From: an uncultured Rhizobiaceae bacterium
Lineage (GTDB): Bacteria; Pseudomonadota; Alphaproteobacteria; Rhizobiales; Rhizobiaceae
Direction: 5' to 3'
Length of the DNA: 64,000 nucleotides
Assembly (NCBI GenBank): GCA_951813045.1
Contig: CATOTF010000002.1
Location: forward strand, 620,001 to 684,000
Shown here: positions 3,015-54,152 of the stretch, one piece after another
How positions within the stretch are numbered: position 1 is the first letter of the stretch
Layout: each line of letters opens with the position of its first letter
Notes under the pieces: generated by a model
Seen by the model: only the letters and a program-made list of their open reading frames with translations
Told to the model about the DNA's origin: nothing
Databases searched by the model: none
Made by a program: the position numbers and the translations under genes

Positions 3015-3740
3015 TTAAATCGTCATCATGCCGACACTTGCACCGCCGCATACGTAGAGCGTTTGGCCGGTGACAAAGCTGCTGGCTGGATCGCAAAAAA
3101 ACAAAAAGGCATTTGAGACGTCTTCGACATTGCCCAGCCTGCCAACCGGAATTCTATTGGCAAGAGCTTGTTCCTGTTCGCTGCCTTTTTCAACGATGCC
3201 CCAAAAGTTGTCCGTTTGAATGGGTCCCGGTGCTACCACATTGACGGTGATTTGATGCTGGGCCAATTCCAGAGCCCAAGTGCGTGCCATGCCAATCATT
3301 GCAGCCTTACTGGCGCTGTAGGCTGTTCGTGTTGGCGCACCCAATGCGGCACGCGATCCGTTGAACATGACCCGGCCAAATCCGGCCCGTTTCATCGAGG
3401 GTAACGTCGCCTGCAACAGGGTGAGGGCGGAGCCGAGATGAAGTTGAGCCAGGCCGGTGATATCTTCGGGTTTCGCCTCTTCCAAAAGATTGGGCCAGAT
3501 GAGGCCAGCATTATGAACAAGATGCGTGACGTCGAAACTCGTCGTAATTTCATCTGCAGCTTTGGTCACAGCATCCGCATCAAGCAAGTCGGCCTGTACT
3601 GAATGCAGTTTGGGGTGGGTGACATCCGGAGCACGCCGGGCGACGGAAATGACAGTGTAATCTTTTGCCAAAAGCTTTTGAGCAAGATCAGCACCAATGC
3701 CCTTGTTTCCGCCGGTTATAACGGCCGTCAACTTACTCAT
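3015..3740 (-). CDS. SDR-family oxidoreductase, last gene of the dioxygenase operon
   Basis: A 241-residue classical short-chain dehydrogenase/reductase. The cofactor loop TGGNKGIG is near residue 10, the catalytic serine lies in NGSRAALG, and the catalytic YSASK is near residue 141, so it should be an active NAD(P)(H)-dependent alcohol/ketone oxidoreductase. It overlaps the preceding cyclase-family gene by four bases (ATGA), implying translational coupling. In a ring-hydroxylation pathway it could dehydrogenate a cis-diol or oxidise a hydroxyacyl intermediate; that is inference. It differs from the degenerate SDR domain encoded two genes upstream, which lacks these catalytic residues. Confidence 0.88.
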   Translation of the reverse strand: MSKLTAVITGGNKGIGADLAQKLLAKDYTVISVARRAPDVTHPKLHSVQADLLDADAVTKAADEITTSFDVTHLVHNAGLIWPNLLEEAKPEDITGLAQLHLGSALTLLQATLPSMKRAGFGRVMFNGSRAALGAPTRTAYSASKAAMIGMARTWALELAQHQITVNVVAPGPIQTDNFWGIVEKGSEQEQALANRIPVGRLGNVEDVSNAFLFFCDPASSFVTGQTLYVCGGASVGMMTI

Positions 3741-4525
3741 GCGTTTTCTCCCGATACCATGGCCAGAACACGCAAAGGGCTGCCAGTACCATTTCTAATT
3801 TTCAGCGGAGCGGCCATCAAGATGGCTCCAGTGGGTGGCAGCTGGTCAAGGTTTGCCAGACATTGAAGACCGTATTTTCCCGCGCCGTGCAAAAAATAAT
3901 GGGCTGGATAAGGCGGCGTATAATGGCTGCCCTGACCGGCATCTGTGCCAATCGTTTCTGTACCGAAACCACGTATTTCTCGTTTATCTATGAGAAAGCG
4001 AATGCCATCAGGCGTCGGGCCTGGTGAGTGTGGGCCGTCTTCCCGCATGTTCAAGTATGCAGCCCCCGATTTTTTAGACCAATCCGTGCGCATCAAGACC
4101 CATGCCCCTTTGGGGATTTTACCGTGTTTAGTTTCCCAGTCTTGGATTACTTCCGGCGTCAACTCAAAATCATCGTCCTTGGCGGCGTCAACAGAGCAAT
4201 CGATCACACATACCGGTCCGACAAACATTTCAGGTGCGATTTCGTCGACAGAGTTGTTCGGCACATCTCGTCCGGATATCCAGTGAGAGGGGGCATCAAA
4301 ATGGGTTCCGGTGTGTTCAGACAGAGTGATATTATGCCACTTCCATGCGGGGCCGCGGTGGTCATAGGCGCTGATTTCTTCCATGCGAAAACGGGCGCAT
4401 TGTCCGAATTCCGGCGGCAAAATGATAACGGGAAAATCCGGGTCAAGCGTGTGTGTTAAATCAACAATGTGAATATCACCGGCTGCGATTTGGCTCGCCA
4501 GATCGGTTAATGTGCTTTGGCTCAT
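3737..4525 (-). CDS. Cyclase-family (kynurenine formamidase-like) metal hydrolase
   Basis: A 262-residue protein with the signature HTGTHFDAPSH near residue 92, whose histidines and aspartate bind metal in the cyclase/KynB superfamily. The family includes kynurenine formamidase and hydrolases acting on cyclic amides, esters or ring ketones. The C-terminal half keeps the family pattern HYTPPYPAHYFLHGAGKYG. The gene overlaps both neighbours by four bases (ATGA) in the dioxygenase operon. It may open a ring or lactone produced upstream in the pathway, but the substrate is not determinable here. There is no tryptophan-catabolic gene nearby, so a true kynurenine formamidase is unlikely. Confidence 0.85.
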   Translation of the reverse strand: MSQSTLTDLASQIAAGDIHIVDLTHTLDPDFPVIILPPEFGQCARFRMEEISAYDHRGPAWKWHNITLSEHTGTHFDAPSHWISGRDVPNNSVDEIAPEMFVGPVCVIDCSVDAAKDDDFELTPEVIQDWETKHGKIPKGAWVLMRTDWSKKSGAAYLNMREDGPHSPGPTPDGIRFLIDKREIRGFGTETIGTDAGQGSHYTPPYPAHYFLHGAGKYGLQCLANLDQLPPTGAILMAAPLKIRNGTGSPLRVLAMVSGENA

Positions 4526-5778
4526 GCCCCATCTCCACCCATCGTCATCTCGCGTTCCAAGACATTGGGGTTTTGGCGAAAACGTTCATACAGGTCTTTT
4601 GCCACATCGCCGCAATAGGTCTCCTCCAGACCATCCTTTAGCCCTTGCACGACGCTTCGCGCCAAAGCTGAAAGCAACACCTTGGGCGGCGGCAGGGGTT
4701 GATGCCAGTCATCATCGGTTGGTCCGCAATAGACATTCATCACGCGTAGGCCGGAGCTTCTAAATTCAGCCCTCATGCTCTGGCTCAACGACCGTGCTGC
4801 GGCATTGGATGCTGAAAAACATCCGTAATCCGGCGCGTTCGACAGGGCGTGGACGGACAGAATATTGACCCAGGCTACAGCCGAGTTCACACCATCGGAT
4901 GTTCGCGAACACATGCCAGGGCCAAAGGCCTGGGCGAGGCGCATCAGGCCGAGATAATTCACTTCCATCTCATCGCGGGCAAATCCCGTATCACCGCGCG
5001 CGAGTACACCTCCTGGACGAACAAAGCGCGCATTGTTGATGAGAATATCGGTTTTGCCACCTATCTCGCCAGCCAGCCTTTGAACTGATAATGTGTCGGT
5101 CACGTCCAAAGGCAGGATTTCAACTTTGTCGATTGCCGCAAGTTCTTTTTGCTCAGGGTAAGGGCGCCAGCTTTCGCCTTCGCCGATGAAAACCATGGAC
5201 GCGCCAGCTTCGACGATCGCCTTTGCAAGGGTAGGGGAATTGGGATTGCGCGCATCCGTTATCAAAACACGTCGATGTTTTGGGTCGCTTGTCATGGCAC
5301 GCAATTGGGGGTCGTCTTCCATATTGGGGCTCCGTTCCTGCGGCATGGCCAGTAAAACGCCTTGACCGGACCGGTCGAGGCGATTGATCATTTTCACACG
5401 GCCATTGCGTTCACAATCACCGTGGAGATGGCAAATGAGCGTTGGGCCAGCGTCCAGTTTTACACTACCTGTGCGCCAGGGCGCACGTTCGCGAAAATAT
5501 AATTTCGTCGACGTTTGAACTGTGGTTTCAGCCAAAATAGTGCCGTTGGGAGAGATGTTTTTCCAGGGCAGTTCGGTCGACAGGCAGTTGCAACACGCAT
5601 CGCGCGGCGGGTATTGAACTCTGTCGCATTCGCTACAACATTGAAGTGCAAAACGGCCTTCAGCTGCCGCTGCACTTAACCCCATGGCCGCACGGCTTCT
5701 GGTTTCTGGCGGGCGTGTCGGGGAGACTGTTCGCTTCTGCGGGTTTTTTCTGGGTGGCGGTGTAAGAGCGGTACTCAT
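4522..5778 (-). CDS. DUF35 (Zn-ribbon/OB-fold) domain fused to a degenerate SDR domain
   Basis: Residues about 40-150 form a DUF35 unit: a rubredoxin-like zinc ribbon with Cys pairs in CCSECDRVQYPPRDACCNC, then an OB-fold (GTILAETTVQTSTKLYFRER). Residues about 165-410 are an SDR fold, but the cofactor loop reads TDARNPNSPTLAKAI instead of TGxxxGxG, the NNAG motif reads NNAR, and the catalytic YxxxK position reads FSASN. DUF35 proteins partner thiolase-like proteins encoded next door, as here. I infer a non-catalytic or scaffold role for the SDR half. Four-base overlaps on both sides indicate stoichiometric expression with its neighbours. Confidence 0.8.
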   Translation of the reverse strand: MSTALTPPPRKNPQKRTVSPTRPPETRSRAAMGLSAAAAEGRFALQCCSECDRVQYPPRDACCNCLSTELPWKNISPNGTILAETTVQTSTKLYFRERAPWRTGSVKLDAGPTLICHLHGDCERNGRVKMINRLDRSGQGVLLAMPQERSPNMEDDPQLRAMTSDPKHRRVLITDARNPNSPTLAKAIVEAGASMVFIGEGESWRPYPEQKELAAIDKVEILPLDVTDTLSVQRLAGEIGGKTDILINNARFVRPGGVLARGDTGFARDEMEVNYLGLMRLAQAFGPGMCSRTSDGVNSAVAWVNILSVHALSNAPDYGCFSASNAAARSLSQSMRAEFRSSGLRVMNVYCGPTDDDWHQPLPPPKVLLSALARSVVQGLKDGLEETYCGDVAKDLYERFRQNPNVLEREMTMGGDGA

Positions 5779-6962
5779 GGGTCACCCGCCTGTATGATGG
5801 CCGCGGCAGAACATACGCCACGGTCGTAATTGATCATGCCAAATCCAGAAGCCATCGCTCTCTTTGCATCTTTGACCTGTGTTGGTCCCGCTTTCCCCGT
5901 TACCTGTCGGATGGCTTCAACCAACCCGATGAACCCGCCCGCTGCACCTGCCTGCCCGGCAGAAAGCTGCCCGCCGGATGTGTTGTGGGGGAAATCGCCT
6001 TCAATTGTCAGGTCGTGGTCGCGCACAAATTGTGCCGCATCGCCCTTGGGGCAAAATCCAAGGTCCTCAATTTGCATTATGGAGATCACCGGGTAGTCAT
6101 CGTAGGTCTGCAGAAGGTCGATTTGGTCCGGCGTACATTGAGCCGTATCATAGAGTTCATCGATATCCATCGTCCAACCACCGCGCAATTGAATCGGGTC
6201 CTCCGGGTGGGCGTTGTGGCGCTCAATCGCGCCGCTAATTCTGGCAAAAGGCAGATTGCGTTTTACCGCTTCTTCTTCGCTCATCACCAAAAATGCTTCT
6301 GACCCCGCACAGGGCATGACGCAATCAAACAGCGCGATTGGGTCTGAAATGGGTCGCGCATTCATATAATCATCAAGGCTCAATGGTTTCTTCATCACAG
6401 CATTGGGGTTCTTCAGCGCATTGTCCCGTTGGGCCACACATATTCGCCCGAAGTCTTCGCGGGTTGCGCCGTATTCCTGCATATAACGGTCTGTCAGCAG
6501 GGCGAAATTAGCGTTGGGGCCTCCATAACCATAGGGGTATGAGGCATCGGATGCGAAACGGGAGAAGCTCGAAAGCATTTGCCGAAAACTGTCAATATGA
6601 TTGGTATCACCGGATACGCAGGCGACGATATCTGCATCTCCCGTCTGCACCGCTCTGGCCGCCCGGCGCATGGCGACGACGCCACTGGCGCCTCCCATAG
6701 GAATATGGTCCAGCCAACGTGGGCACAGGCCCAGATGTTGGGTCAGGCCCACCGCCGTATCGGGAAACAGGGTGAAACTGGACACCGTGAAACCGTCTAT
6801 TTCTGTCGGTTTTAAGCCTGCTGCATCAAGCGATCCACGCAACGCCTTGGCTATCCACCAATGCGCCGTGTCTATCGAATAGCGCTGATAGGGCGTTGAG
6901 AACGGGGCAACAAGAACGGCTCCATCGTAGGATTGCCTGATACGTTTCGAGGCACGGGTCAT
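5775..6962 (-). CDS. Thiolase-like (SCP2/lipid-transfer type) protein lacking thiolase catalytic residues
   Basis: A 395-residue thiolase-fold protein. The position of the nucleophilic Cys (usually CxSG) reads MGGASGV near residue 92, and the usual C-terminal GHP motif reads AGQAGAAGG after NTSGGQLS. It keeps LLQTYDDYPVISIMQIEDLGFCPKG, typical of thiolase-like proteins that work with DUF35 partners. Such proteins in steroid side-chain degradation (Ltp2 with the ChsH2 DUF35 domain) act as retro-aldolases on acyl-CoAs. By analogy this protein and the adjacent DUF35-SDR fusion may form an aldol-cleaving complex acting on the CoA ester made by the operon ligase. A Claisen-type thiolase is unlikely. 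Confidence 0.82.
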   Translation of the reverse strand: MTRASKRIRQSYDGAVLVAPFSTPYQRYSIDTAHWWIAKALRGSLDAAGLKPTEIDGFTVSSFTLFPDTAVGLTQHLGLCPRWLDHIPMGGASGVVAMRRAARAVQTGDADIVACVSGDTNHIDSFRQMLSSFSRFASDASYPYGYGGPNANFALLTDRYMQEYGATREDFGRICVAQRDNALKNPNAVMKKPLSLDDYMNARPISDPIALFDCVMPCAGSEAFLVMSEEEAVKRNLPFARISGAIERHNAHPEDPIQLRGGWTMDIDELYDTAQCTPDQIDLLQTYDDYPVISIMQIEDLGFCPKGDAAQFVRDHDLTIEGDFPHNTSGGQLSAGQAGAAGGFIGLVEAIRQVTGKAGPTQVKDAKRAMASGFGMINYDRGVCSAAAIIQAGDP

Positions 6963-8593
6963 GCAGCCCGCCGTTTTTTAAGCTTGACCGTGTTGATGGT
7001 CGCCGGATCGTTGAGCAGTTCTGCTGCTTGTTTTTTCAACTCCGCACGTTGAATTTTTTGAGTCGCAGTGAGCGGCAGGCCATCTACAAACGCGATATGG
7101 CCGGGTGCCTTATAATAGGCCATCTGCGTTAGGCACCATTTGGTGATTTCGATGGCCAGTTCTTCGCCTGGACCGTTAATGGGATTATTGACCTGCATAC
7201 AGGCAAACACTTCATCACCACGAATGGCGTCAGGTACTGAGGTCACGCCGACAGCCCTCACAACCGGATGGCGCATGAGGATGGATTCGACTTCCACCGC
7301 GGCGATATTTTCGCCGGACCGTCTGATGACGTTTTTCTTACGATCGACAAAAAAGAACTCGTTCTTCTTGTTTTTCCTCACAACGTCACCGGTGTGGAAC
7401 CAGCCATCCTGCCAGGCTTCCGCAGTAGCCTCTTCGTTTTTGTAGTAGTGGGAGAAGAACCCGTATTTCGGGTCTCCTTCTGCACGGCGTACCAGTAATT
7501 CACCCGGTTCTCCGGTCGGGACTTCATCGCCGTTATCATCAGCAATCTTACAGGCAAGTTCTACGGCTGGTCGCCCCAAACAGGCTTGCCCAACAATGCG
7601 GTCTTTTGTGCTAGCGGCAATAACGGCACCGGCACCCGTCTCCGTCATGGCCCATGCCTCCACCAGGGGAAAGTCAAAGCGTTTTTCGAATTCTGCCTGA
7701 AGTTTCGGGTCGACACCGGCACCAAAACCGAAGCGTACATTGTGTTCAGCATCGCCGGCGTTGGGTTCGACCCCCATAAGCATGGATGGCATCACGCCCA
7801 AATAGTGCAGGCATGTGGCCTTTGAGTCACGAACGTCCTGCCACCAACTGCGGGGGTGAAAGCGATCAAGAACTGTCAGACATCCACCTACAGCCACCAT
7901 GGCCATGAAGGAATATGCCATCGCGTTCATGTGAAAGATCGGGAGCGGCGTAATCATCCGCTCGCGATCCGTGGATAGATCAGCGATACCACCAACACTG
8001 GCATACCACTTGCCAGCCAACAGGAAATAACTGTTGGGGAGCACACAGCCTTTGGGGTTACCTGTGGTACCTGATGTATAAAGAACAGCGGCTTCCTGGG
8101 TTTCTCCACTGTGTAACTCAGCGACAGCGGCCTGCTTGCGCGGAGCAGGTATATTATCCGACGGTTCAATGACTTGCAGCTCGACCTTCGCTTCGCGGGC
8201 GGCATTCGAAAGTTCATCTATCCGGGAAGGTATGGTGATGACCAAGGCCGGTTCAGCATGGCCAATCAAATATTCAAGCTCTGCTGCGCGTAAGTCAGGG
8301 TTAATTGGGACAACGGCGACATCAAGCTTATTGAGGGCGAGCCACAGCATGAAGAACACGGGCCGGTTTTCAAGCAAAAGCGCAACACGCATGCCTTTTG
8401 TGTAACCAGCCTCTTCAAACTTGCTTGCTAAAGTTGTGACCTGAGAATGAGTGTCACTATAACTTAGTCCGCCCGCCTCAATACCATAGATGTCGGCTGT
8501 GGATGGCAAGACATTTAATACTTCACGGTCGGGCCATCTGTTGGCCGCCGCTGCAAAAGCTTCGTAAACGCTGCTGGCTTGAGGATCGATCAT
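6959..8593 (-). CDS. Class I acyl-CoA ligase (AMP-binding, ANL superfamily)
   Basis: A 544-residue adenylate-forming ligase. The P-loop-like motif YTSGTTGNPKGC is near residue 172, the A5 motif appears as EAWAMTETGAG near residue 316, the hinge WFHTGDVVRKNKKNEFFFVDRKK near residue 398, and the adenylation lysine lies in TATQKIQR near residue 515. It should activate a carboxylic acid to its CoA thioester via an acyl-AMP in the cytoplasm. The overall sequence resembles the CaiC-like group, but the substrate is probably a ring-containing acid given the flanking dioxygenase and thiolase-like genes. Overlaps of four bases join it to the genes on either side. Confidence 0.88.
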   Translation of the reverse strand: MIDPQASSVYEAFAAAANRWPDREVLNVLPSTADIYGIEAGGLSYSDTHSQVTTLASKFEEAGYTKGMRVALLLENRPVFFMLWLALNKLDVAVVPINPDLRAAELEYLIGHAEPALVITIPSRIDELSNAAREAKVELQVIEPSDNIPAPRKQAAVAELHSGETQEAAVLYTSGTTGNPKGCVLPNSYFLLAGKWYASVGGIADLSTDRERMITPLPIFHMNAMAYSFMAMVAVGGCLTVLDRFHPRSWWQDVRDSKATCLHYLGVMPSMLMGVEPNAGDAEHNVRFGFGAGVDPKLQAEFEKRFDFPLVEAWAMTETGAGAVIAASTKDRIVGQACLGRPAVELACKIADDNGDEVPTGEPGELLVRRAEGDPKYGFFSHYYKNEEATAEAWQDGWFHTGDVVRKNKKNEFFFVDRKKNVIRRSGENIAAVEVESILMRHPVVRAVGVTSVPDAIRGDEVFACMQVNNPINGPGEELAIEITKWCLTQMAYYKAPGHIAFVDGLPLTATQKIQRAELKKQAAELLNDPATINTVKLKKRRAA

Positions 8594-9072
8594 GGCAACA
8601 ATTGTATGTTGCCAAACGCGGCGTCAGAGTTGAGCAGATCCACCCGCTTGTTGGCAAGGCGGAGTGCACCATCCACAAGCTTCAAACTGTGTGTCGCCGT
8701 GAGAGCCAGCATGAATTGTTCATCCAGTCGTGTCTCCACATAATGCATGGAGGTGTTGGTCACAAATGTGCCTTCTGCTTCATCCATTTCATCGACAAAC
8801 GGGCGCTGGATTACGTGATGGCAACGGCTTTTCGGTTTCTGGCTGAAAGTGCGGGCACCGTTCAACCGCTCCACCCGGAGTTTGAGCATGAACATGTCTT
8901 CGTAGAGCAGCGATGTCACAAGATGCGGGTCAGTCTGTTTATAGTCGAGCGGCATCCAGTAGTGCCCGTCGGGCAACCACAAATCAAGCCACTCGCTGAA
9001 ACGGCCTTCATCCAGCATACGGGCTTCTTCATAGATAAAATCGATTAGCTGATCTTTCGACGGAGCGCTCAT
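8590..9072 (-). CDS. Aromatic-ring-hydroxylating dioxygenase beta subunit
   Basis: A 160-residue protein of the small-subunit family of Rieske non-haem iron oxygenases (cone-shaped NTF2-like fold). Visible family features are the N-terminal IDFIYEEARMLDEGRFSEWL, the WLPDGHYWMPLDY segment, and RCHHVIQRP near the middle. It is a structural subunit of an alpha3beta3 oxygenase and lies directly after the alpha-subunit gene, overlapping by four bases. No catalytic residues are expected in this subunit. Confidence 0.9.
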   Translation of the reverse strand: MSAPSKDQLIDFIYEEARMLDEGRFSEWLDLWLPDGHYWMPLDYKQTDPHLVTSLLYEDMFMLKLRVERLNGARTFSQKPKSRCHHVIQRPFVDEMDEAEGTFVTNTSMHYVETRLDEQFMLALTATHSLKLVDGALRLANKRVDLLNSDAAFGNIQLLP

Positions 9073-10415
9073 TCTGCTGCCTCTGCGTGGCCTTCCATTG
9101 TGGAGGTCATGAACCTGGACCAGGCATCAAACTGATTACGCATCTGCCTTTCGGTGGTGCCGTTTTCGACCGCCTCACTGCTGAAATCTTCATTGCCTTC
9201 GAAGAGCCGTTGGAGATTAACCCATTCCAGCCCGTTGCTCATCAAACCTTCCTGCGCCCGCTCATACATTTCCAAATCATCATGCCCAACAATAGAAGTC
9301 GGAGCATTGATCATGCGATTGTACATGGCGGTGCGCGACAACAATTCATCCGGTGCGCCAACCAAACGATAGATGTAACTCTCCACCAGTGTCTTGTTGG
9401 GCCCCAGTGGAATGAAATTGCGTAATTGCTGGATTGGGCCTTTCACCATAATGCTTGGGAAGTAGATCGTGTTATGGCGATTTTCGTCCAGAATTTCTTT
9501 GGCGCGATCCTCGCCATAGGCTTGGGTCATAGCTTCGAAATAACCGGGAATTGCTGAATAATCAGAGTGGATGGACATGTTCACCCCGGTGTGGCCATGG
9601 CCGTTGGGCCAGGTACGAATGCCCATATCTTCAAAGAACTCATAAGGAGACATAAAAGGCGCGATAATCTGCATTGCCGGTGGGCGTGGTTCCGGGTTGC
9701 CTAACTCGTCCCAGATTTTTACGGCGGTACCCGCTGAACTTTCGTGAGCCACCATTGGATGGCATGTGTCGGTCTGGTTTTCGACAAGCATTTTCCAATT
9801 GCATTTGTGCATATAGCGTAGCGGTGGTCCTGCAACTTCCAACCGGCCCTCGGGAGAACGGTCGACCATATTATCAATCGAGGAAAGACTGTCACCGAAG
9901 AATTCTTCAAAGCCGATACCTTCTTCGGCAAGGCGTGCGAAGATGAAGCCTCGATGATTGTAAACGGCACCAACGGGCTTAATGCCCTTCACGTTTTCGG
10001 TCTGATGCAACCCTGTGTCTTCATAACCCTTTTTCAAAGGGATCGCTAAAAGGCAGCCGTCTGTTTTGAATGACCATGCGTGGTAAGGGCAGCGGAAAAA
10101 CTTGCCTGTATTGCCTTCTCTGTCGATTGCGATTTTGGTGCCCTTGTGCGGGCAGCGGTTGTTCAGAACCTTCACTTCACCATCGGAATGCCGGACTTGA
10201 ATGACCGGCTGATCGCCTATTTGCGTGGTATAGTAGTCGCCCTTTTTCGGGGTTTGGCTTTCATGGCCAACAAACACCCAGGTGTTGGTAAAGAGGTTGC
10301 GCATTTCGAGGCGGTAGACTTTCTCGCTGGTATAAACATCCCGGTGAACCTGATGGCCCTGTACCATGCCTGCAATATCTTGAACGGTAAGTTTAGGTGA
10401 CTGATATGGTGCCAT
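9069..10415 (-). CDS. Aromatic-ring-hydroxylating dioxygenase alpha subunit (Rieske)
   Basis: The catalytic large subunit. The Rieske [2Fe-2S] ligands appear as CPH and CPYH about 20 residues apart (NRCPHKGTK and FRCPYHAWSF, near residues 90-115). The mononuclear iron site is marked by VENQTDTCHPMVAH near residue 215, with Asp bridging the two centres and His ligands. I start at an ATG with AAAGGAGA six bases upstream; the open frame extends 19 codons further but that part overlaps the reductase end. It forms a three-component oxygenase with the beta subunit and the upstream reductase, hydroxylating an aromatic acid or ring. The substrate is unknown; no ring-cleavage dioxygenase gene is in the operon. 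Confidence 0.92.
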   Translation of the reverse strand: MAPYQSPKLTVQDIAGMVQGHQVHRDVYTSEKVYRLEMRNLFTNTWVFVGHESQTPKKGDYYTTQIGDQPVIQVRHSDGEVKVLNNRCPHKGTKIAIDREGNTGKFFRCPYHAWSFKTDGCLLAIPLKKGYEDTGLHQTENVKGIKPVGAVYNHRGFIFARLAEEGIGFEEFFGDSLSSIDNMVDRSPEGRLEVAGPPLRYMHKCNWKMLVENQTDTCHPMVAHESSAGTAVKIWDELGNPEPRPPAMQIIAPFMSPYEFFEDMGIRTWPNGHGHTGVNMSIHSDYSAIPGYFEAMTQAYGEDRAKEILDENRHNTIYFPSIMVKGPIQQLRNFIPLGPNKTLVESYIYRLVGAPDELLSRTAMYNRMINAPTSIVGHDDLEMYERAQEGLMSNGLEWVNLQRLFEGNEDFSSEAVENGTTERQMRNQFDAWSRFMTSTMEGHAEAAE

Positions 10416-10426
10416 TTCTATCTCCT

Positions 10427-11374
10427 TTAGATATCCAGAACGAGACGCGCAGACCTGGCGCGGCTGACACAAATTTGCATGACTTTGCCAGCCTCGCGGT
10501 CGGCATTTGATAATACAACATCGCGATGGTCAGGGGTGCCGTTGATGATGTCGGTTTGACAGATACCACAATCCCCGCGCTGGCAATCGTACATCACATC
10601 TACACCGGCTTCTTCCAAAACCTCGATGATCGTTTTACCAACGGGAATCGCATAAACGTCGCCGGTATCGTGGATCTCCACCTCAAACGGCGTATCTCCC
10701 GATTGGGTGTCAGGAGACGTAAACAGTTCAATATGGACGTTTTCATCGGGTAGACCAACGACAGAAGCAGCCGTTTTCGCTGCTTCAATCATTCCCTTGG
10801 GGCCACAAATATACACATGTGTCTCAGCGCTTTGGGCGGACATGAGGGCGTCTAAATCGATAGGGTTTTCATCATCGCAATATAGGCTCAGTTGCTCTGG
10901 GAATGCGGCTTTCAGGCGGTCGGTAAAGCCCATCGCAGACATGCTGCGACCTGTGTAGTGGAAGGAGAACTGAGCGTTGCGGGAAACCAGTTCCGTCGCC
11001 ATTGAAATGATTGGCGTGATGCCAATGCCGCCTGCCAAGAGCAAAACAGGGTTTTGTGATGCGAAGAGCTCAAAATCGTTTTTGACACCCAAGGCGCTTA
11101 CCACTCGTCCTTCGACAAGAGCATGCATGGCCTTTGAACCGCCTGCACCGTCTTCTTCGCGCTGCACCGCGATTGTATATTCTTTGGGGCTGTTTTTTGA
11201 TCCGCCCCAGTCGATCAATGAATAAGCGCGGTTACCCGCTTCCTGGAGATCAAACTCAATATGTGCACCTGCCGTAAAACTTGGCAGAGCGGCCTCGTCA
11301 TGGGCTTTCAGAACGATAGAACGAATTCTTTCCGTTTCGTCGTGAATGCGATCGACAACAAGGTTTTGCACCAT
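10427..11374 (-). CDS. PDR/VanB-type oxygenase reductase (flavin, NAD, plant-type [2Fe-2S])
   Basis: A 315-residue phthalate-dioxygenase-reductase-like protein: flavin-binding beta-barrel (RAYSLIDWGG near residue 52), NAD-binding domain (LLLAGGIGITPI near residue 110), and a C-terminal ferredoxin domain with CQRGDCGIC and a distal Cys in QICVSRA. It passes electrons from NAD(P)H to the Rieske oxygenase encoded next. It is the first gene of the operon, with GGAGGA nine bases before its ATG and a strong promoter upstream. Its stop codon lies within the ribosome-binding region of the alpha-subunit gene. Confidence 0.9.
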   Translation of the reverse strand: MVQNLVVDRIHDETERIRSIVLKAHDEAALPSFTAGAHIEFDLQEAGNRAYSLIDWGGSKNSPKEYTIAVQREEDGAGGSKAMHALVEGRVVSALGVKNDFELFASQNPVLLLAGGIGITPIISMATELVSRNAQFSFHYTGRSMSAMGFTDRLKAAFPEQLSLYCDDENPIDLDALMSAQSAETHVYICGPKGMIEAAKTAASVVGLPDENVHIELFTSPDTQSGDTPFEVEIHDTGDVYAIPVGKTIIEVLEEAGVDVMYDCQRGDCGICQTDIINGTPDHRDVVLSNADREAGKVMQICVSRARSARLVLDI

Positions 11375-11395
11375 TTATCATTCCTCCAAGTTCAC

Positions 11396-11426
11396 ATTGT
11401 ATGAAATTTCATATAATAATTGTCAA
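11396..11426 (-). promoter_or_regulatory. Promoter of the dioxygenase operon with a palindromic operator
   Basis: On the minus strand TTGACA (11421-11426) and TACAAT (11396-11401) are separated by 19 bases. A perfect 14-bp palindrome, TATGAAATTTCATA (11400-11413), overlaps the -10 end of this spacer. The site sits between the operon and the divergent marR gene, so the natural reading is a MarR-family operator that blocks RNA polymerase until a pathway acid or CoA ester binds. The spacer is longer than the ideal 17, which would suit a regulated promoter. Assignment is inference from position and symmetry. Confidence 0.6.
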
Positions 11427-11490
11427 CCCTTCTCCCGCTGTGTTATCCATCAGATTATGAAGAGAGAAATCTCAAACAGAGCCAACCAAC

Positions 11491-11955
11491 GTGAACAAGC
11501 TAGATTCGACATCAATGGAGGGAGAGCGGGAGACATTTGTGTCTTCCTACCTTTTGTATCTGCTCGCAGCATCAAGTGATGCCGCCAGCACTCAGTTTCA
11601 CCAACGCGTCCGTTCATTGGGTTTGCGCGTCCCGGAATGGCGTGTTTTGGCCTGCCTGACGGATCAAGACGGTATGATGATCACACGATTGGCTGACCTC
11701 GCGTTGGTTGAACAGTCTCGATTGACCCGTATTATTGATCAGATGGAAAAACGGGGATTGGTTGAACGAAAGACCGATGTGCAAGATGGTCGACGGCTCC
11801 TCATCTATCTGACGGCAGAAGGCCGCAAAGTCAGTGCAAAATTGGTTGACGAGGCCAAAGTTCATGAAGCGAAACTGTTGAGCATTTTGGAAGACACGGA
11901 TGCAGCCCGTATCAAGCCGGCTCTTAAGGCGTTGTTGCGCAGTCTTGAAGGCTAA
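11491..11955 (+). CDS. MarR-family transcriptional regulator
   Basis: A 154-residue winged-helix regulator: the recognition region MITRLADLALVEQSRLTRII is near residue 62 and the wing KTDVQDGRRLLIYLT near residue 97, with the DxRR pattern typical of the family. It is divergent from the dioxygenase operon and probably represses it, as MarR proteins of aromatic-acid pathways (HpaR, BadR, CouR types) do. The start may be GTG as given or an ATG eight codons in; neither has a clear ribosome-binding site. Its stop codon abuts an IS3 remnant, so the last residues may have been altered by insertion, though the length is normal. Confidence 0.85.
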   Translation: MNKLDSTSMEGERETFVSSYLLYLLAASSDAASTQFHQRVRSLGLRVPEWRVLACLTDQDGMMITRLADLALVEQSRLTRIIDQMEKRGLVERKTDVQDGRRLLIYLTAEGRKVSAKLVDEAKVHEAKLLSILEDTDAARIKPALKALLRSLEG

Positions 11956-17623: not shown

Positions 17624-19112
17624 TCACCATTGGCTGATTCAGTTTGCCCATTGATTTGGGAGATTGATGCGATGCTGGGACCACGCCAGGAATTTCAATC
17701 GGCTTTGTTTTACGAGTTCAATCTCGAAGACCACGTGCCTGATGATCATCTATTGCGGTCAATTGACCGGTTTGTTGATCTTGGCGATATGCGGTCGCAC
17801 CTGCGCCCATTTTACAGCGACATTGGCCGCCCTTCGGTTGATCCTGAACTGATGATCCGCATGTTGCTGGTCGGATACATCATGGGCATCCGATCTGAGC
17901 GACGGTTGTGCGATGAGGTCCATGTGAATCTTGCCTACAGATGGTTCTGCCGTCTTGATCTAGGCGACCCCGTGCCTGATCAATCGACCTTTTCCAAGAA
18001 CCGCCATGGCCGGTTTCGAGAGAGCGATCTGTTCCGGCAATTGTTTGAGAGCGTTGTTACTCGTTGCATTGCTGAAGGTTTAGTTGGTGGAGAGGTGTTT
18101 GCGACTGATGCCAGCATTATTCGGGCAGATGCCAACAAGCAGAAATCGACACCAAAGGAGGAATGGGACGCATCATCACTCGATCCAGCAACTGTGCCTC
18201 GGGCTGTGAAGGAATATCTAGAGGTGCTGGATGACGCAGCATTCGGTGCCGCCAGTGAGGTCGAACCTAAGTTCACTTCACGTTCTGACCCTGCTTCCCA
18301 ATGGACCGGTGCGCTCAAGGGCCCAGCTTTCTTCGCTTACTCAGACAATTACCTGATCGACACAGATCACGCGATTATCGTGGATGTGGAAGCCAGCCGT
18401 TCAATTAGACAGGCCGAGGTTGGTTCTACACGCACCATGATCGTACGAACGCGGGAAACGTTTGACCTCTACCCCGAGATACTGGTCGCCGACACAGCTT
18501 ATGGTTCCGCAGAAAACCTCAACTGGTTGGTCAACAAAGAAGGTATCCTGCCGCATATTCCAATCATCGATAAGTCGCGACGCAAGGACGGCACTTTTGA
18601 GAAAAGCGAGTTTGTCTACGACCACGAAAAGGACGCTTATATTTGTCCGATCGGATTACCGCTGCGTCCAACCCAACGGGCTTACCGGAATCGAAAATCT
18701 CCTGTAGCGGCGGACAATACGATCCGTTACCGCGCCAGCAAATATGATTGCCAGGAATGCCTGCTGAAGAAATATTGCTGCCCCAACCAACCCGTCCGCA
18801 ATGTCGGCCGCCACATTTATGAAGGTGCTCGTGATTTGGCCCGCGAGCTCTCGCTGACCGACGCTTATGTCGATTCACAACGACGGCGAAAAAAGGTCGA
18901 AATGCTGTTTGCCCACCTCAAACGCATCATGAAACTCGACCGACTGCGCCTGCGGGGACCAAACGGAGCCAAAGATGAATTCCTTCTCGCAGCAACAGCA
19001 CAAAACCTCAGAAAACTAGCCAAGTTGATCCCGCAACCGGTGTGAAACCGGATCGGGAGACGCTCGATCAAACTCCAAAGCCGACTAAAACAAAGCCTTT
19101 TTCATCAAAATC
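17593..19112 (+). mobile_element. Intact IS1182-family insertion sequence (1520 bp)
   Basis: The ends are inverted repeats: GATTTTGATGAAAAAG at 17593-17608 and its reverse complement ending at 19112 (16 identical bases, then partial matches). They are flanked by the 4-bp direct repeat GGCT at 17589-17592 and 19113-19116, a target-site duplication of the length expected for this family. The element carries one transposase gene on the plus strand and splits the rsmB-like gene. Clean ends and duplication mean it moved here as a unit. Confidence 0.93.
17672..19045 (+). CDS. IS1182-family transposase
   Basis: A 457-residue DDE transposase beginning MLGPRQEFQSALFYEFNLED, preceded by GGGAGA. The N-terminal region has VDPELMIRMLLVGYIMGIRS and VPDQSTFSKNRHGRF; the first catalytic Asp is in VFATDASIIRAD; the second in ILVADTAYGSAENL; a Cys-rich zinc-binding-like patch (CQECLLKKYCC) follows; and the catalytic Glu region is RRRKKVEMLFAHLKRIMKL. 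All family landmarks are present and uninterrupted, so it is probably active. The frame is open 14 codons further upstream. Confidence 0.92.
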   Translation: MLGPRQEFQSALFYEFNLEDHVPDDHLLRSIDRFVDLGDMRSHLRPFYSDIGRPSVDPELMIRMLLVGYIMGIRSERRLCDEVHVNLAYRWFCRLDLGDPVPDQSTFSKNRHGRFRESDLFRQLFESVVTRCIAEGLVGGEVFATDASIIRADANKQKSTPKEEWDASSLDPATVPRAVKEYLEVLDDAAFGAASEVEPKFTSRSDPASQWTGALKGPAFFAYSDNYLIDTDHAIIVDVEASRSIRQAEVGSTRTMIVRTRETFDLYPEILVADTAYGSAENLNWLVNKEGILPHIPIIDKSRRKDGTFEKSEFVYDHEKDAYICPIGLPLRPTQRAYRNRKSPVAADNTIRYRASKYDCQECLLKKYCCPNQPVRNVGRHIYEGARDLARELSLTDAYVDSQRRRKKVEMLFAHLKRIMKLDRLRLRGPNGAKDEFLLAATAQNLRKLAKLIPQPV

Positions 19113-48230: not shown

Positions 48231-49084
48231 GATTTGCGTTTGTCGAAGAACACAGGAAACACGTTCCGGTGGATCGGCTTTGCCATATTCTGAATGTTAC
48301 ATCGCGTGGTTATCGTGCCTGGCACAACCGCCCTGTTAGTCAACGGCAGCGCGATGACATGGTGGTTCTGGCGCACATCCGTGAACAGCATCACTTGAGC
48401 CTTGGCAGTTATGGTCGCCCGAGAATGACGCAGGAGTTGAAGGAAGCCGGCCTTGCTATTGGTCACCGCCGTGTTGGCCGTTTGATGCGCGACAACGGCA
48501 TTCGAGTGGTCAGAACACGCAAATACAAAGCTACGACCGATAGCAATCACCGCTTCAACATTGCGCCTAACTTGCTGGGGCGGAACTTCCAAGCGGATAA
48601 ACCCAACCAGAAATGGGCAGGTGACATCAGCTACATCTGGACCCGTGAGGGCTGGCTGTATCTGGCAGTGATGATCGATCTACATTCACGCCGTGTGGTG
48701 GGTTGGGCTGTCAGCAACCGGTTGAAGAAAGACTTGGCATTGCAGGCTCTCAACCGGGCTTTGGCCCTTCGAAACCCACCGCCGGGCTGCATTCATCATA
48801 CGGACCGTGGCAGTCAATACTGCTCTCATGATTATCAAAAACGAATGCGTGAACTGAAGTTTAAAGTGTCCATGAGCCGAAAAGGCAATTGCTGGGACAA
48901 CGCCGTGGTCGAGACGTTCTTCAAAACACTCAAAGCCGAACTCATCTGGCGCGGCACATGGCAAACACGACAGCAAGCAACCGACGCCCTGTTCCAATAC
49001 ATCAACGGCTTTTACAACAGCCGCAGAAGACACTCAGCAATAGGAGGAATGTCGCCCATCAAATTTGAACGAAAAACGAGTTAA
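48227..49084 (+). CDS. IS3-family OrfB (integrase-core transposase)
   Basis: A 285-residue rve-type transposase: an N-terminal helix-turn-helix ([20 protein letters not shown]), and the DDE residues in [25 protein letters not shown] and [16 protein letters not shown] with the downstream Lys/Arg. All three acidic residues are intact. The remnant at 11956-12157 is a diverged relative of this protein. Its last codons overlap, in another frame, the apparent start of the kinase gene. Confidence 0.93.
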
Positions 49085-52000
49085 ACGAGAACAGGATGCG
49101 GAATTAATACGGGACAAGTCCAAATCCGTCCGCGAGGCGCGCGTAGTTCACAATGTCGATCTGCGCCTGACAGATCACTATATCAACGGCGATCCATGGC
49201 GCAGGCAATTGGTTGATGAGGAAGGTGTTCGTTCATTCTTGACAGTTCCGTTGATGTCCGCAAACGGCAGTCCTGTAGGGGTCATCGGGATTTATAGAAA
49301 AGAAGTCAGACCCTTTTCGGACGACGAACTCTCACTTGTTGAAAAATTTGCCGCCCAGGCTGTAATCGCTTTAGAAAACACCCGGCAATTCCGCGAAGTA
49401 CAAGAGCGCACCGCCGAGGTGACGGAGGCGCTGGAGTATCAAAAAGCTACGTCCGAAGTGCTTGAGGTTATCTCGCGATCCCCGGATCAGTTGATCACTG
49501 CGCTTGAGGCGATATTAGCCGTCGCTTCGCGTATCTGCCGGTTGCAGGATGCTTTTGTTGCGCTGAAAAATCCCGAAGATGGGAAATTCCACGTGTTTGC
49601 TACCCATGGTGGGACGGACGAGTTCAGAGAATTTATGAGGGCGCATCCATTTGAACCGGGCGACGGTTCCATAACTGCACGAGCGCTGCGAGATGGTCGC
49701 GGCTATTTTATTGAAAATATTCAAGAAGATAAAGGCTATGATCCCACGCTGAGTTCAGCGTTTCGCGACCACGGTTATCGATCAGCACTGGCTGTACCTC
49801 TTTTTCGCGACAAAGACGTGATTGGGGTGATCACATTGGGCAGCAAAGAAACTGCAACCTTTACTGAACAAAACGTCAAACTGATGGAAACCTTCGCCTC
49901 GCAAGCGATCATTGCAATCAACAACGCACGTCTCTTTGACGAGGTACAGCAACGCACCGCCGAGGTGACAGAAGCGTTGGTACGCGAACAGGCCAGCGCT
50001 GAAATCCTGCAGCTCATCAATGAAGCGACCTCGGACCTGCAACCGGTCTTTGATCTGGTAGTCCAGAAATCAGCAGAACTTTGTGGCGCAAACTTCTGTG
50101 TATTGGATCGCTTTGACGGCGAAGAATTCCATTTCTGCGCACAGCACGGCTTCCCTCAGAAGACCTTGAAAGAATTGGTGGCCGACTACCCGGTAAAGTA
50201 TGACGATAGTGAAGGTCATATCACCCCCCGGGTCGTCGCGCAGGGAAAAGTGGTTCACATAAATGACGCGCAGGCCGCAGACTATTTTAATCCTGAATTG
50301 GCCAAGATGGTTGGATTTCGCCGTCTGATGGGTGTGCCGATCAAAGCCGGTGAGGCTGTTTGGGGCGTGATCATTCTGGGCTGGCCTGACACCACTACCC
50401 CCTCCAACGCCAATATCGAACTGGTACAAAGCTTTGCCGCGCAGGCCAGCATCGCCATTGATAATGCTCGCTTACTGCGCGAAACCCAAGAGCGTACGGC
50501 GGAAGTTACAGAGGCATTGGAACAGCAAGAAGCCAGCGCGGAAATCCTCAGCGTTATCAGCCAGTCGGTTGAAGACACGCAGCCGGTATTTGAAAAAATC
50601 CTAGAAAGCTGCAAGGCATTGTTCAAAAGCGAACACCTCGCGGTGATGCTGGTCGATGATCAGGATCAACTGCACATGAACGCTTATCTTGGTCACATGG
50701 AGGAACAAATTGCTGGTGCATTCCCCGTTCCTGTAGAAAAAACCCCAGCTGGTGTCGCAATCCAATCAGGCAAGATCGTGCATTTTAAGAACATTGCCCG
50801 CGATCCTGACGCACCCAAGGGTCTTAAAAGACTCGTAGAAATTCAGGATGTAGATGATTTCTCCGCTGCCTATGCGCCCATGTTCTCCGAAGGAAAGACA
50901 ATCGGAGCAATCGGTGCAGGAAGGTCTGACAGGCCATTTAATGAAAAGGAACTGGCAATCTTTCAGGGCTTCGCCGATCAGGCGGCTATCGCCATCCAAA
51001 ATGCGCGGATGTTCAACGACAAAGAAGCGGCTCTGGTTCGCCAAACAGCCAGCGCCGATATTCTCCGGGTAATCAGCGGCGCTCAAACGAATGTCATGCC
51101 AGTCTTTGAGGCGATCGTGAAATCGGCAGTGCCACTGCTGTCCTGTGACATGGCGTTCGTTTTGATTAGTGATGGAGATACCTATTCTCCCGTTGCGGCG
51201 GCGAGCCCAACTGGCCCCATTGTTGATATGGGGCCAACTCGTGTTCCAATTGACCCGGAACAGAACTACCCTTCACGCGCCATTCATTCCAAGTCGATGC
51301 TCCATCTGCCAGATTGGAGCGTTCTGGAACATCCTCCACACGAACAAATTGTCTACGAACAATTTGGAATTGGCTCCGTCCTCTATCTGCCGCTTTTGCA
51401 CGGAGACGAATACCTGGGAATTCTGGTTTTTGCGCGCACTGAGATAGGCCCATTCAATCAAGATGAAATCGATCTTGGTCAATCTTTTTGCGATCAAGCC
51501 GTGATCGCAATCCAAAACGCGCGGATGTTCAATGAAACGCAGGAGTCGTTGGAGCAGCAGACCGCAACGGCCGAGGTTCTCAAGGTTATCAGCCGCTCTG
51601 CATTCGACCTACAACCTGTGTTCGACACATTGGCAGAAAGCGCGGTTAGACTGTGCGAGGCCGAGAGAGCGGTGATTTTTCGATTCGATGGCGAGTTTCT
51701 TCGGATTGCAGCGACACACAACGTCGGCCCTGAACTCAGAGCGTTCATAGAACAAAACCCGATCGCTCCAGGAAGAAACAGCATCTCTGCGCGTGCTGCT
51801 CTGGAACAGCGAACAGTGCACGTTCCTGATGTTCAGGCGGATCCCGAATATGATTATGCCGTACGAGATTCTGACCCCATCCGAACGCTACTCGCGGTTC
51901 CGATGCTCAAGGGGGATGAGCTGGTGGGCACCATCACGATCTACAAACTAGAAGCAAAACCGTTCACCGAAAAGCAAATCTCGCTCGTTGAGACATTCTC

Positions 52001-54152
52001 CGACCAAGCGGTTATCGCGATTCAAAATACTCGAATGTTCAATGATACGGAAGCAGCACTGGCGCGTCAGACAGCCAGTGCTGATATTCTGCGGGTGATC
52101 AGTGGCTCACCAACAGACGTGACTCCGGTGTTTGAAGCCATTGTTCAAGCCGGGGTGGAATTGGTTTCGTCAGGTTTTGTGACGACATTGATCAAAGACG
52201 GCACTTCGTTTCGGCCGTTGGCTCGGGGCTCAAAGGATGGATTGTCCGATGTAAGTATGAGGGAAAATACCCCAATTGCCCCCAATGAGAACTTTCCATC
52301 GCAAGTAATTTTCTCCAAAGAAGTTATGCACATACCGGACTGGACAATTATTGACCTGCCTCCTTTCGAACAGGAAATGCATGAACAATTCGACATTATG
52401 TCGTCCATTTATTTACCCCTTATTCGAGGAGAAGACTGTCTAGGAGTGCTGGCTTTCATTCGCAACGAGAAGAAAGCTTTCACCAAAAAGGAAATTGATA
52501 TTGCACAATCCTTTTGTGATCAGGCCGTTATTGCGATTGAAAATGTGCGTCTGTTCCAGGAAGCCCAAGACGCCCGTGCAGCTGCGGAGACTGCCAACGA
52601 GGCAAAAAGCTCGTTTCTTGCGACCATGAGCCACGAAATCCGCACGCCCATGAATGCCGTCATCGGAATGAGCGGTTTGCTGATGGACACGTCTCTCGAT
52701 ACTGAACAACAGGATTACGCCAACACAATCCATGACAGCGGGGATGCTCTGCTGGGCATCATCAACGACATTTTGGATTTCTCTAAAATCGAAGCCGGGC
52801 AGATGGATTTGGAACTCCGCCCCGTCGACCTGCGTGATTGTGTCGAATCTGCACTGGATCTGGTCAGTTCCCGGGCTGCTGAGAAAAACCTCGACATTGC
52901 CTATATCCTGGAGGACGAGGTGCCTCTTGCCATCAGCACTGACCTCACACGCTTGCGTCAGATTCTCCTCAATCTCCTGTCGAATGCCATCAAATTCACC
53001 CAAACCGGTGAAGTTGTGCTGACGGTGTCGGCCAAGGCAATCAAGGGAGATCAGGTGGAACTGGCGTTTGAGGTGCGCGACACAGGTATCGGACTGACGG
53101 CTAAGGGTATGAAACGGCTATTCCAGTCTTTCAGTCAGGCGGATTCTTCGACCACCCGTAAATACGGTGGGACAGGCCTCGGCCTTGCTATCTCAAAGCG
53201 ACTGGCTGAATTGATGGGCGGCACTATGTGGGCTGTCAGCGATGGCACAGGCAAAGGATCAACTTTCCACTTCACTCTGCGTGCGGAGAAATCTGAGCTG
53301 CCTGAGACGCAGGCCCGCAATCTTATTGGAATGCAGGCAGAACTTGAGGGAAAAAGCCTGTTGGTGGTGGACGACAATGAAACCAATCGACACATATTGG
53401 CGCTACAAACGAGTAAGTGGGGCTCCAAAACGCACGCTACTGGTTCACCTCTGGAAGCTTTGGAATGGCTAAAAGCTGGAGAGCGGTTCGACCTAGCCAT
53501 CCTGGACATGCATATGCCCGAAATGGACGGGGTGGAATTGGCCCGCGAAATTCAAAAAAGGGGTGTGGCTTTACCAATGGTTCTGTTCAGCTCACTGGGT
53601 ATGAGGGATTCCGAAGTTCAGACGGGACTGTTCGAAGCTTTCTTGGCAAAACCGCTGCGGCAATCACAATTGTTCGACACGCTGGCAACTCTCTTTGAAC
53701 CGGATAAAAAGCATGACGTTATTGATAAGGCACCGGCCAAGCCCAAAATGGACCCCGAACTGGCCAGCCGACATCCGTTGCGAATTCTGTTGGCCGAAGA
53801 TAATTTGGTCAATCAGAAACTCGCGCTGCGTTTACTAGGTCAGATGGGCTATGACGCCGACGTTGCCAACAATGGGTTGGAAGCGGTTGAATGTGTCGGG
53901 AACCAAATTTACGATGTGGTGTTGATGGACGTTCAGATGCCCGAATTGGATGGCCTTGATGCAACTCGTCGTATCGTCAAAAAGCATAAAGAAAATGATC
54001 GCCCCAAAATCGTTGCCATGACTGCGAACGCGATGCAGGGTGATCGCGAAATGTGCCTTGATGCGGGAATGGATGATTATATCACCAAGCCGATCAGAGT
54101 TGATCGACTGATCGAGGCAATTATGAATATCCCTCAACGGGAGAGGAAATAA
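49065..54152 (+). CDS. Multi-GAF hybrid sensor histidine kinase with two receiver domains; N-terminus replaced by IS sequence
   Basis: A 1695-residue frame. Seven GAF domains (first truncated; others about residues 145-290, 320-470, 500-645, 675-820, 845-990, 1015-1160) are joined by repeated linkers of the type [10 protein letters not shown] and [11 protein letters not shown]. Then HisKA with His1190 ([10 protein letters not shown]), HATPase with N1307 and GGTGLGLAI, receiver 1 (VVDDNE, Asp1481) and receiver 2 (LAEDNLVNQ, Asp1622). No membrane segment is seen, so it is cytoplasmic. The first 20 residues come from the IS3 end with a TTG as the only early start; the native N-terminus seems lost. 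An Hpt gene and a receiver-cyclase gene follow directly. Confidence 0.88.

Follow-up and report, generated by a model that had tools for sequence, protein, structure and literature searches.

Degradation of the auxin indole-3-acetic acid (IAA) has been reported for Ruegeria pomeroyi and Variovorax (PMC9613470), and the Variovorax iad locus (PMC12633357, PMC10374108) carries, in a collinear operon, the same two genes that are the subject of this work: iadG and iadH, found in a 64,000-nucleotide stretch of DNA from an uncultured Rhizobiaceae bacterium (contig CATOTF010000002.1, positions 620,001 to 684,000 of the forward strand; hereafter the window, in whose own numbering coordinates are given). 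Papers are cited by PubMed Central number. In Variovorax, IadCDE and IadJ convert IAA to C10H9NO4, named dioxindole-3-acetic acid, and deletion of iadF, iadG, iadH or iadI in each case leads to accumulation of C10H9NO4 (the formula of dioxindole-3-acetate, DOAA) with lowered anthranilate (PMC12633357). The same 2025 preprint names IadG and IadH ketothiolase and alcohol dehydrogenase from their annotation; DUF35, OB-fold, aldol and zinc are words absent from its text, as DUF35 and aldol are from that of PMC9613470, and PMC10374108 mentions IadG and IadH once each, one mention being in the cloning methods.

The closest described proteins outside auxin degradation are thiolase-fold enzymes with a DUF35 partner. 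Sal-Shy(DUF35), the bile-acid aldolase of Comamonas testosteroni (PDB 9MYR; PMC12329534), includes the best PDB sequence match of IadG (Sal, E = 1.6e-66) and shares with it the thiolase fold, a Gly replacing the nucleophile Cys, the base Tyr of a YDxY motif, a Gln at the His position of GHP and the DUF35 partner. Sal differs in its steroid substrate and in its motif: Tyr302 and Cys304 of YDCY are both essential in CtSal (PMC12329534), and an Asp stands in place of Cys304 in IadG. Shy differs from IadH in that the fusion partner of its DUF35 domain is an active MaoC hydratase (PMC11321319) and not a dead short-chain dehydrogenase/reductase (SDR). Ltp2-ChsH2(DUF35) (PDB 6OK1) is a thiolase-fold retro-aldolase acting at a ring hydroxyl (C17), much as proposed here for IadG, but TcLtp2 has YDHF and Tyr344 (PMC12329534) where IadG has YDDY and Gln337; in ChsH2 the DUF35 domain, which binds Ltp2, is joined to a MaoC domain that has lost the catalytic residues (PMC12329534, PMC11321319), a parallel to the dead SDR of IadH in another enzyme fold. 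Benzoylsuccinyl-CoA thiolase BbsAB (7pxp) also pairs a thiolase subunit acting on an arylacyl-CoA with a DUF35 subunit, BbsA (PMC12329534), but is a thiolase by name and a weaker match to IadG (E = 8.7e-34). The ipfDE genes of ibuprofen degradation (PMC9195938), likened here by description only, are comparable in that an oxidised ring gives up an acyl-CoA by a retro-aldol reaction. On a plasmid of Sphingopyxis granuli RW412, locus L137, possibly an ipf locus, encodes an Ltp2-like YDHF protein and, next to it, a separate OB-fold protein. Within the open-licence literature we found neither a proposal of the auxin side-chain step as a retro-aldol reaction nor a description of a DUF35-SDR fusion; subscription papers may differ.

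We consider it probable that IadG, together with the DUF35 domain of IadH, is a retro-aldolase that cuts dioxindole-3-acetyl-CoA (DOAA-CoA) to isatin and acetyl-CoA, and that the SDR domain of IadH is dead. The argument builds on the identity of the operon, conserved motif losses in both proteins, kinship to DUF35-bound aldolases and linkage to a characterised isatin hydrolase, all of which are established at the level of sequence.

Motif losses in IadG and IadH

The pair comprises two genes confirmed as open reading frames (ORFs) that overlap by ATGA:
5775-6962, minus strand: iadG, a Cys-less thiolase-fold protein of 395 aa with GGASG at residues 90-94, YDDYP at 287-291 and GQAG at 336-339; proposed dioxindole-3-acetyl-CoA retro-aldolase
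4522-5778, minus strand: iadH, a protein of 418 aa with an N-terminal tail, a zinc ribbon and OB fold (DUF35/ChsH2-type) and a degenerate SDR, as assigned from Pfam and the census; proposed partner subunit of IadG

For the census, a scan of genome contigs yielded 221 confirmed IadH relatives, of which the best 80 were kept and combined with 10 plasmid loci to give 90 loci; with the best 80 of 221, the census covers the closer orthologues. IadG was compared in the window and 83 of these loci. Partial genes (L018, L029, L072, L084, L095) were dropped, no IadG was obtained from L061 and L098, which begin at a contig edge, and L019 is represented by its second copy, the main copy having the same motifs. 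IadH was compared in the window and all 90 loci.

IadG has the Pfam domain Thiolase_C_1. Its motifs read MGGASG (89-94), TYDDYP (286-291) and SAGQAG (334-339), and alignment to the solved thiolases 7yvy and 6esq places G91 at the nucleophile Cys, Y287 and D289 at the His and the Ala/Cys of HDAF/HDCF, and Q337 at the His of GH(P/A). GG at 90-91, YDDYP and GQAG are each found in 84/84 IadG sequences, and every one of them departs from thiolases at all four catalytic positions compared, so that the nucleophile Cys, HDxF His and GHP His of a canonical thiolase are uniformly missing. The original prediction, which had placed GGASG at the Cys site and AGQAG in place of GHP, is borne out by this alignment and by the invariance. 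YDDY also occurs in 12/12 further distinct IadG loci, one of which reads YDDYA (L122 and L135 are the same gene, and L125 ends before the motif). A thiolase encoded elsewhere in the genome of the window (L010) keeps CATG, HDCF and GHP.

The AlphaFold2 model of IadG has a mean predicted local distance difference test score (pLDDT) of 83.0 and a predicted template modelling score (pTM) of 0.89, residues 1-4, 134-146 and 207-213 being poor. Foldseek places 9myr (Sal-Shy) and then two 6ok1 chains (Ltp2-ChsH2) in the first three rows by E-value. A small unrooted tree separates the IadG rows from all references with a support of 99 (the row own_L011 is a wrong reading frame and carries no meaning), and we therefore file IadG beside Sal and Ltp2, inside neither clade. 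With aldolases of this type it has in common the thiolase fold, the base Tyr of YDxx—invariant in IadG (84/84)—the absent nucleophile Cys and a DUF35 partner encoded alongside. Asp289, present in 84/84 instead of the essential Cys304 of YDCY, sets it outside the Sal clade proper; YDDY and GQAG, instead of YDHF and the acid Tyr344, set it outside that of Ltp2.

IadH unites zf-ChsH2 (residues 36-70, E = 5.5e-9), OB_ChsH2_C (72-127, E = 3.3e-9) and adh_short (183-360, E = 1.4e-17) in one protein, in agreement with the DUF35-SDR fusion originally described. Its DUF35 identity rests on Pfam, since the 50 Foldseek matches listed for the model (mean pLDDT 86.9, pTM 0.87) are all SDRs. The four zinc Cys are kept in 91/91 sequences. 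The SDR motifs, by contrast, are degenerate: they read TDARNPNS (174-181), NNAR (248-251) and FSASN (321-325), and the first Gly of the cofactor loop (position 175) and Lys325 are each found in 0/91, Tyr321 in 9/91 and Tyr with Lys in 0/91. Q, N, S, A, H or G occupies the former Lys position. Ser308 is kept in 81 of the 91 and Asn274 in 83. Among 13 further distinct loci Lys survives in two (L128 and L133, both FSASK), and Tyr and Lys never occur together (0/13). The predicted loss of cofactor loop, NNAG and YxxxK thus stands as regards the residues themselves, with Gly and Lys absent throughout the census, and has to be softened for Ser308 and Asn274, which are mostly kept, and for the Lys of the two further loci; an intact SDR among close homologues was looked for and none was seen in the 91 + 13 IadH sequences. 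SDR-only relatives have an intact glycine loop, NNAG and YxxxK in 12/12 examined, and IadJ, the SDR of the same operon, has intact motifs as well, unlike IadH.

Lacking the TGxxxGxG and YxxxK of a catalytic classical SDR, the C-terminal domain of IadH would have no catalytic activity and would have been retained for its structure, for docking or for binding a ligand. Of the stretches computed, the core of helix E (277-289) is conserved best, with a mean of 0.93 against 0.74 for the SDR domain, and was picked for this computation after its conservation had been noticed; helix E is the usual dimer face of SDRs. On a plasmid of Sulfitobacter sp. THAF37 (L019:9529-11129), a second IadG (YDDYP) is followed by a free-standing IadH-like DUF35 protein without an SDR, so that the SDR domain may be dispensable for the cleavage itself.

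Isatin hydrolase and the iad operon

The gene following iadH encodes an enzyme 81% identical to isatin hydrolase A (PDB 5nnb), for which activity assays are stated in PMC6117287; 5nnb is in turn 100% identical to the product of the gene that immediately follows iadH in Roseibium aggregatum IAM 12614 (L042). His71, His75, Asp77, His81, Asp195, His209 and Gln221 of IadI are kept in 86/86 sequences (the window and 85 of the 90 loci), these being the metal and neighbouring residues listed for LaIHA (PMC6117287), mapped by an offset of two.

The operon spans window positions 3015-11955, with the gene order C-D-E-F-G-H-I-J and a divergent MarR gene. From C to J the gene classes are reductase, Rieske alpha, Rieske beta, acyl-CoA ligase, thiolase-like, DUF35-SDR, cyclase-family and SDR, and the junctions from D-E to I-J are six ATGA overlaps. 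By its sequence the gene pair is iadG and iadH of the iad auxin-degradation locus (PMC9613470, PMC12633357), and this identity allows substrate and product to be named. The features around the pair are as follows:
3015-3740, minus strand: iadJ, an SDR with intact sequence motifs (TGGNKGIG, YSASK); proposed as the maker of dioxindole-3-acetate, following the Variovorax report (PMC12633357)
3737-4525, minus strand: iadI, the isatin hydrolase
6959-8593, minus strand: iadF, an AMP-forming acyl-CoA ligase, from a domain search
8590-9072, minus strand: iadE, a Rieske oxygenase beta subunit, from a domain search
9069-10472, minus strand: iadD, a Rieske oxygenase alpha subunit, from phmmer against PDB chains
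10427-11374, minus strand: iadC, a reductase with NAD-binding and 2Fe-2S domains, from a domain search
11396-11417, between iadC and iadR: a 22-bp palindrome, ATTGTATGAAA/TTTCATATAAT, seen in the sequence
11491-11955, plus strand: iadR, a MarR-family regulator, 64% identical to 3CDH

The listed iadD ORF begins at a TTG within iadC, and the true start is probably further in. Among PDB chains IadD is closest by phmmer to 9o71 (E = 9.7e-171) and 7yls (E = 1.8e-169), which we take to be Variovorax IadD, in agreement with their names and the IadD structure paper. The closest PDB match of the window MarR is 3CDH, the IAA-binding MarR of Ruegeria pomeroyi; a MarR of this species binds IAA with a dissociation constant of 0.237 uM (PMC9613470, whose text leaves the strain unnamed). 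The palindrome is a candidate operator for IadR.

The linkage of the genes is conserved. IadI lies directly 3' of IadH in 90/90 loci, partial genes at contig ends counted, and IadG directly precedes IadH in 86/90 by script; in the other four, the main copy of L019 is adjacent by annotation, the two matches of L057 overlap, and L061 and L098 are truncated at a contig edge. All eight iad genes stand on one strand in 60/90 loci, and in 49/62 of those longer than 16 kb. The same gene order is found on plasmids of Ruegeria pomeroyi DSS-3, Roseibium and Sulfitobacter. One R. pomeroyi locus (L044) holds the whole iad set with a MarR 99.3% identical to 3CDH, and no MarR match was found in the fetched stretch of the DSS-3 megaplasmid locus L012.

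We also drew two samples of genomes. The IadH profile matched in 20 of 398 genomes of the phylum sample (our own included), over both domains in eight and over the SDR part alone in 12; in the order sample of 199 genomes it matched in 22, of which 11 held 13 matches over both domains. The both-domain matches amount to 17 (8 + 13, with 4 shared), 14 of which were inspected, one being the window; the SDR-only relatives examined are the 12 of the phylum sample, 12 others from the order sample being left out. IadG lies beside IadH in all 14 inspected loci and IadI in 13, the exception being L126/L134. In L128, which has the same C-D-E-F-G-H-I-J order, IadD is 94% identical to PDB 9o71, and IadG and IadH are 64% and 52% identical to the window proteins. 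This Variovorax-type locus carries a second Rieske oxygenase pair (L128:2202-3946) beside its main iad genes, the alpha subunit being 58% identical to 9o71.

In nine of the 62 loci that exceed 16 kb, the fetched stretch lacks IadD, yet the fusion IadH is kept; eight of the nine are also without an IadJ-like gene above 40% identity, and L129, L130 and L132 likewise keep the fusion without IadD or an IadJ-like gene. These loci make it less likely that the dead SDR serves in general to dock IadJ. IadG-IadH-IadI modules without IadD in the fetched stretch are present in L016, L017, L020, L021, L051, L060, L066, L076, L085, L129, L130, L132, L133 and L135; they may receive dioxindole-3-acetate by a different route, act on a related substrate or be supplied by genes elsewhere.

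An ORF for an IS4/5-type transposase of 120 aa (2564-2926) adjoins iadJ, and a DDE transposase lies at 17630-19045; both are possibly marks of mobility. Near the operon, positions 678-1667 encode a MsnO8-type luciferase-like monooxygenase, and farther along the window (49065-54152) lies a hybrid histidine kinase of 1695 aa that carries about seven GAF stretches as well as two receiver domains.

Proposed retro-aldol cleavage and its rivals

In the mechanism that we propose, IadF would ligate CoA to DOAA, and the resulting DOAA-CoA would bear a tertiary hydroxyl at C3, beta to the thioester, making it a tertiary beta-hydroxyacyl-CoA. Because this hydroxyl is tertiary, DOAA-CoA could not be oxidised to a 3-ketoacyl-CoA and cleaved by a thiolase. 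Instead, IadG in complex with the DUF35 domain of IadH would break the C3-CH2 bond by retro-aldol cleavage: Tyr287 would take the proton of the C3 hydroxyl, isatin would leave, and the acetyl-CoA enolate would be protonated, probably by Asp289. IadI would then open isatin to isatinate. The side chain would thus be removed without a redox step, consistent with a dead SDR. We infer from the sequences the binding of IadG to IadH, the retro-aldol activity, the Tyr-Asp dyad and the SDR role, and the published deletion phenotypes fit the mechanism. That the pair cleaves an aldol CoA intermediate had been part of the original prediction; it is supported by the census of motifs, by the nearest relatives in sequence and by the logic of the pathway, and the operon, the substrate and the product had gone unrecognised. 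The role of an aldehyde channel suggested for the SDR does not fit, since isatin, the carbonyl compound expected, is a ketone; its other suggested role, as a scaffold, may hold.

The published reading has IadG as an acetyl-CoA acetyltransferase (ketothiolase) and IadH as an active alcohol dehydrogenase, which with IadF would remove the side chain reductively to give C8H7NO2; it is inferred from annotation in PMC12633357, and C8H7NO2 was indeed seen downstream of IadF-H. We regard it as improbable, given 84/84 IadG sequences without the nucleophile Cys, HDxF His and GHP His, 91/91 IadH sequences without the first cofactor-loop Gly and the Lys, and an isatin hydrolase as the next enzyme in the operon; the combination of a canonical thiolase with an active SDR was rejected on these motifs. 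That no 3-keto group can form from a tertiary C3 hydroxyl also counts against a ketothiolase. It is very improbable that the operon acts on another arylacetic acid in the manner of ibuprofen degradation, by CoA ligation, ring dioxygenation and thiolase-like/DUF35 cleavage, even though the gene classes are similar and PMC9195938 describes a retro-aldolase step with an ipfDE-encoded thiolase. Such an ipf-type pathway was an initial hypothesis from the gene classes, and was set back by the isatin hydrolase that follows IadH in 90/90 loci, by an IadD closest, among PDB chains, to that of Variovorax and by a MarR closest to the IAA-binding 3CDH. We likewise give very little credence to an IadH whose SDR can still bind a nucleotide or isatin and works as an unconventional catalyst, for instance as an isatin reductase that would explain the reported C8H7NO2. 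The retained Ser308 (81/91) and Asn274 (83/91), the Lys of two further loci and a relative solved with NADP without its Tyr (5u4s) would suit such an enzyme; the first loop Gly is nonetheless missing from all 91 sequences, Tyr and Lys are never found together in either set, and the old Lys position drifts among six residues.

Several observations weigh against retro-aldol cleavage by IadG and IadH. Chief among them is that C8H7NO2 (the dioxindole formula), and not isatin (C8H5NO2), was found both when iadI was deleted and in the strain iadCDEFGH_JK2 (PMC12633357). As the retro-aldol step alone yields isatin, our reading has to assume a side reaction in which other reductases form dioxindole from isatin, and C8H7NO2 would be this dioxindole; earlier Variovorax work detected both dioxindole and isatin (PMC9613470). 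True thiolases equal the aldolase in TM-score to the IadG model (6esq 0.82 and 7pxp 0.81-0.82, with 9myr at 0.81), and it is therefore the motifs, not the fold, that carry the argument for an aldolase. Asp289 as the acid is a guess, IadG having neither the Cys304 of Sal nor the Tyr344 of Ltp2. DUF35 is apparently unimportant for the aldolase activity of Ltp2 (PMC11321319); if the same holds for IadG-IadH, the block caused by iadH deletion needs another reason, and the role of DUF35 may be tethering. The best PDB SDR relative of IadH, 5u4s, has lost the Tyr (SLSASK) and is yet titled an NADP complex, so that Tyr loss alone is no bar to cofactor binding by IadH. Finally, in L134 (genome G490) IadG and IadH are separated by 480 bases, and no IadI was found nearby.

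A bolder form of the proposal is possible, if on balance unlikely. IadG would represent a third catalytic design of thiolase-fold aldolases, built on the Tyr-Asp dyad of YDDY, and IadH a fixed pseudo-dehydrogenase whose retained helix-E face and Ser/Asn pocket would serve as a docking site for an adjacent Iad enzyme or bind the oxindole, taking DOAA-CoA through isatin to isatinate inside one complex without release.

Significance for auxin degradation

Retro-aldol cleavage by IadG and IadH would give side-chain removal in bacterial auxin degradation, assigned from annotation alone in PMC12633357, a chemically sensible identity. If it is true, no redox step is needed at this point, and isatin is the predicted direct product. 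The DUF35-bound thiolase-fold aldolases would be extended from steroids to an indole plant hormone, with IadH as a widespread and conserved pseudo-SDR. As root bacteria are being equipped with iad genes for better plant growth (PMC12633357), it would matter whether IadG and IadH act as one enzyme.

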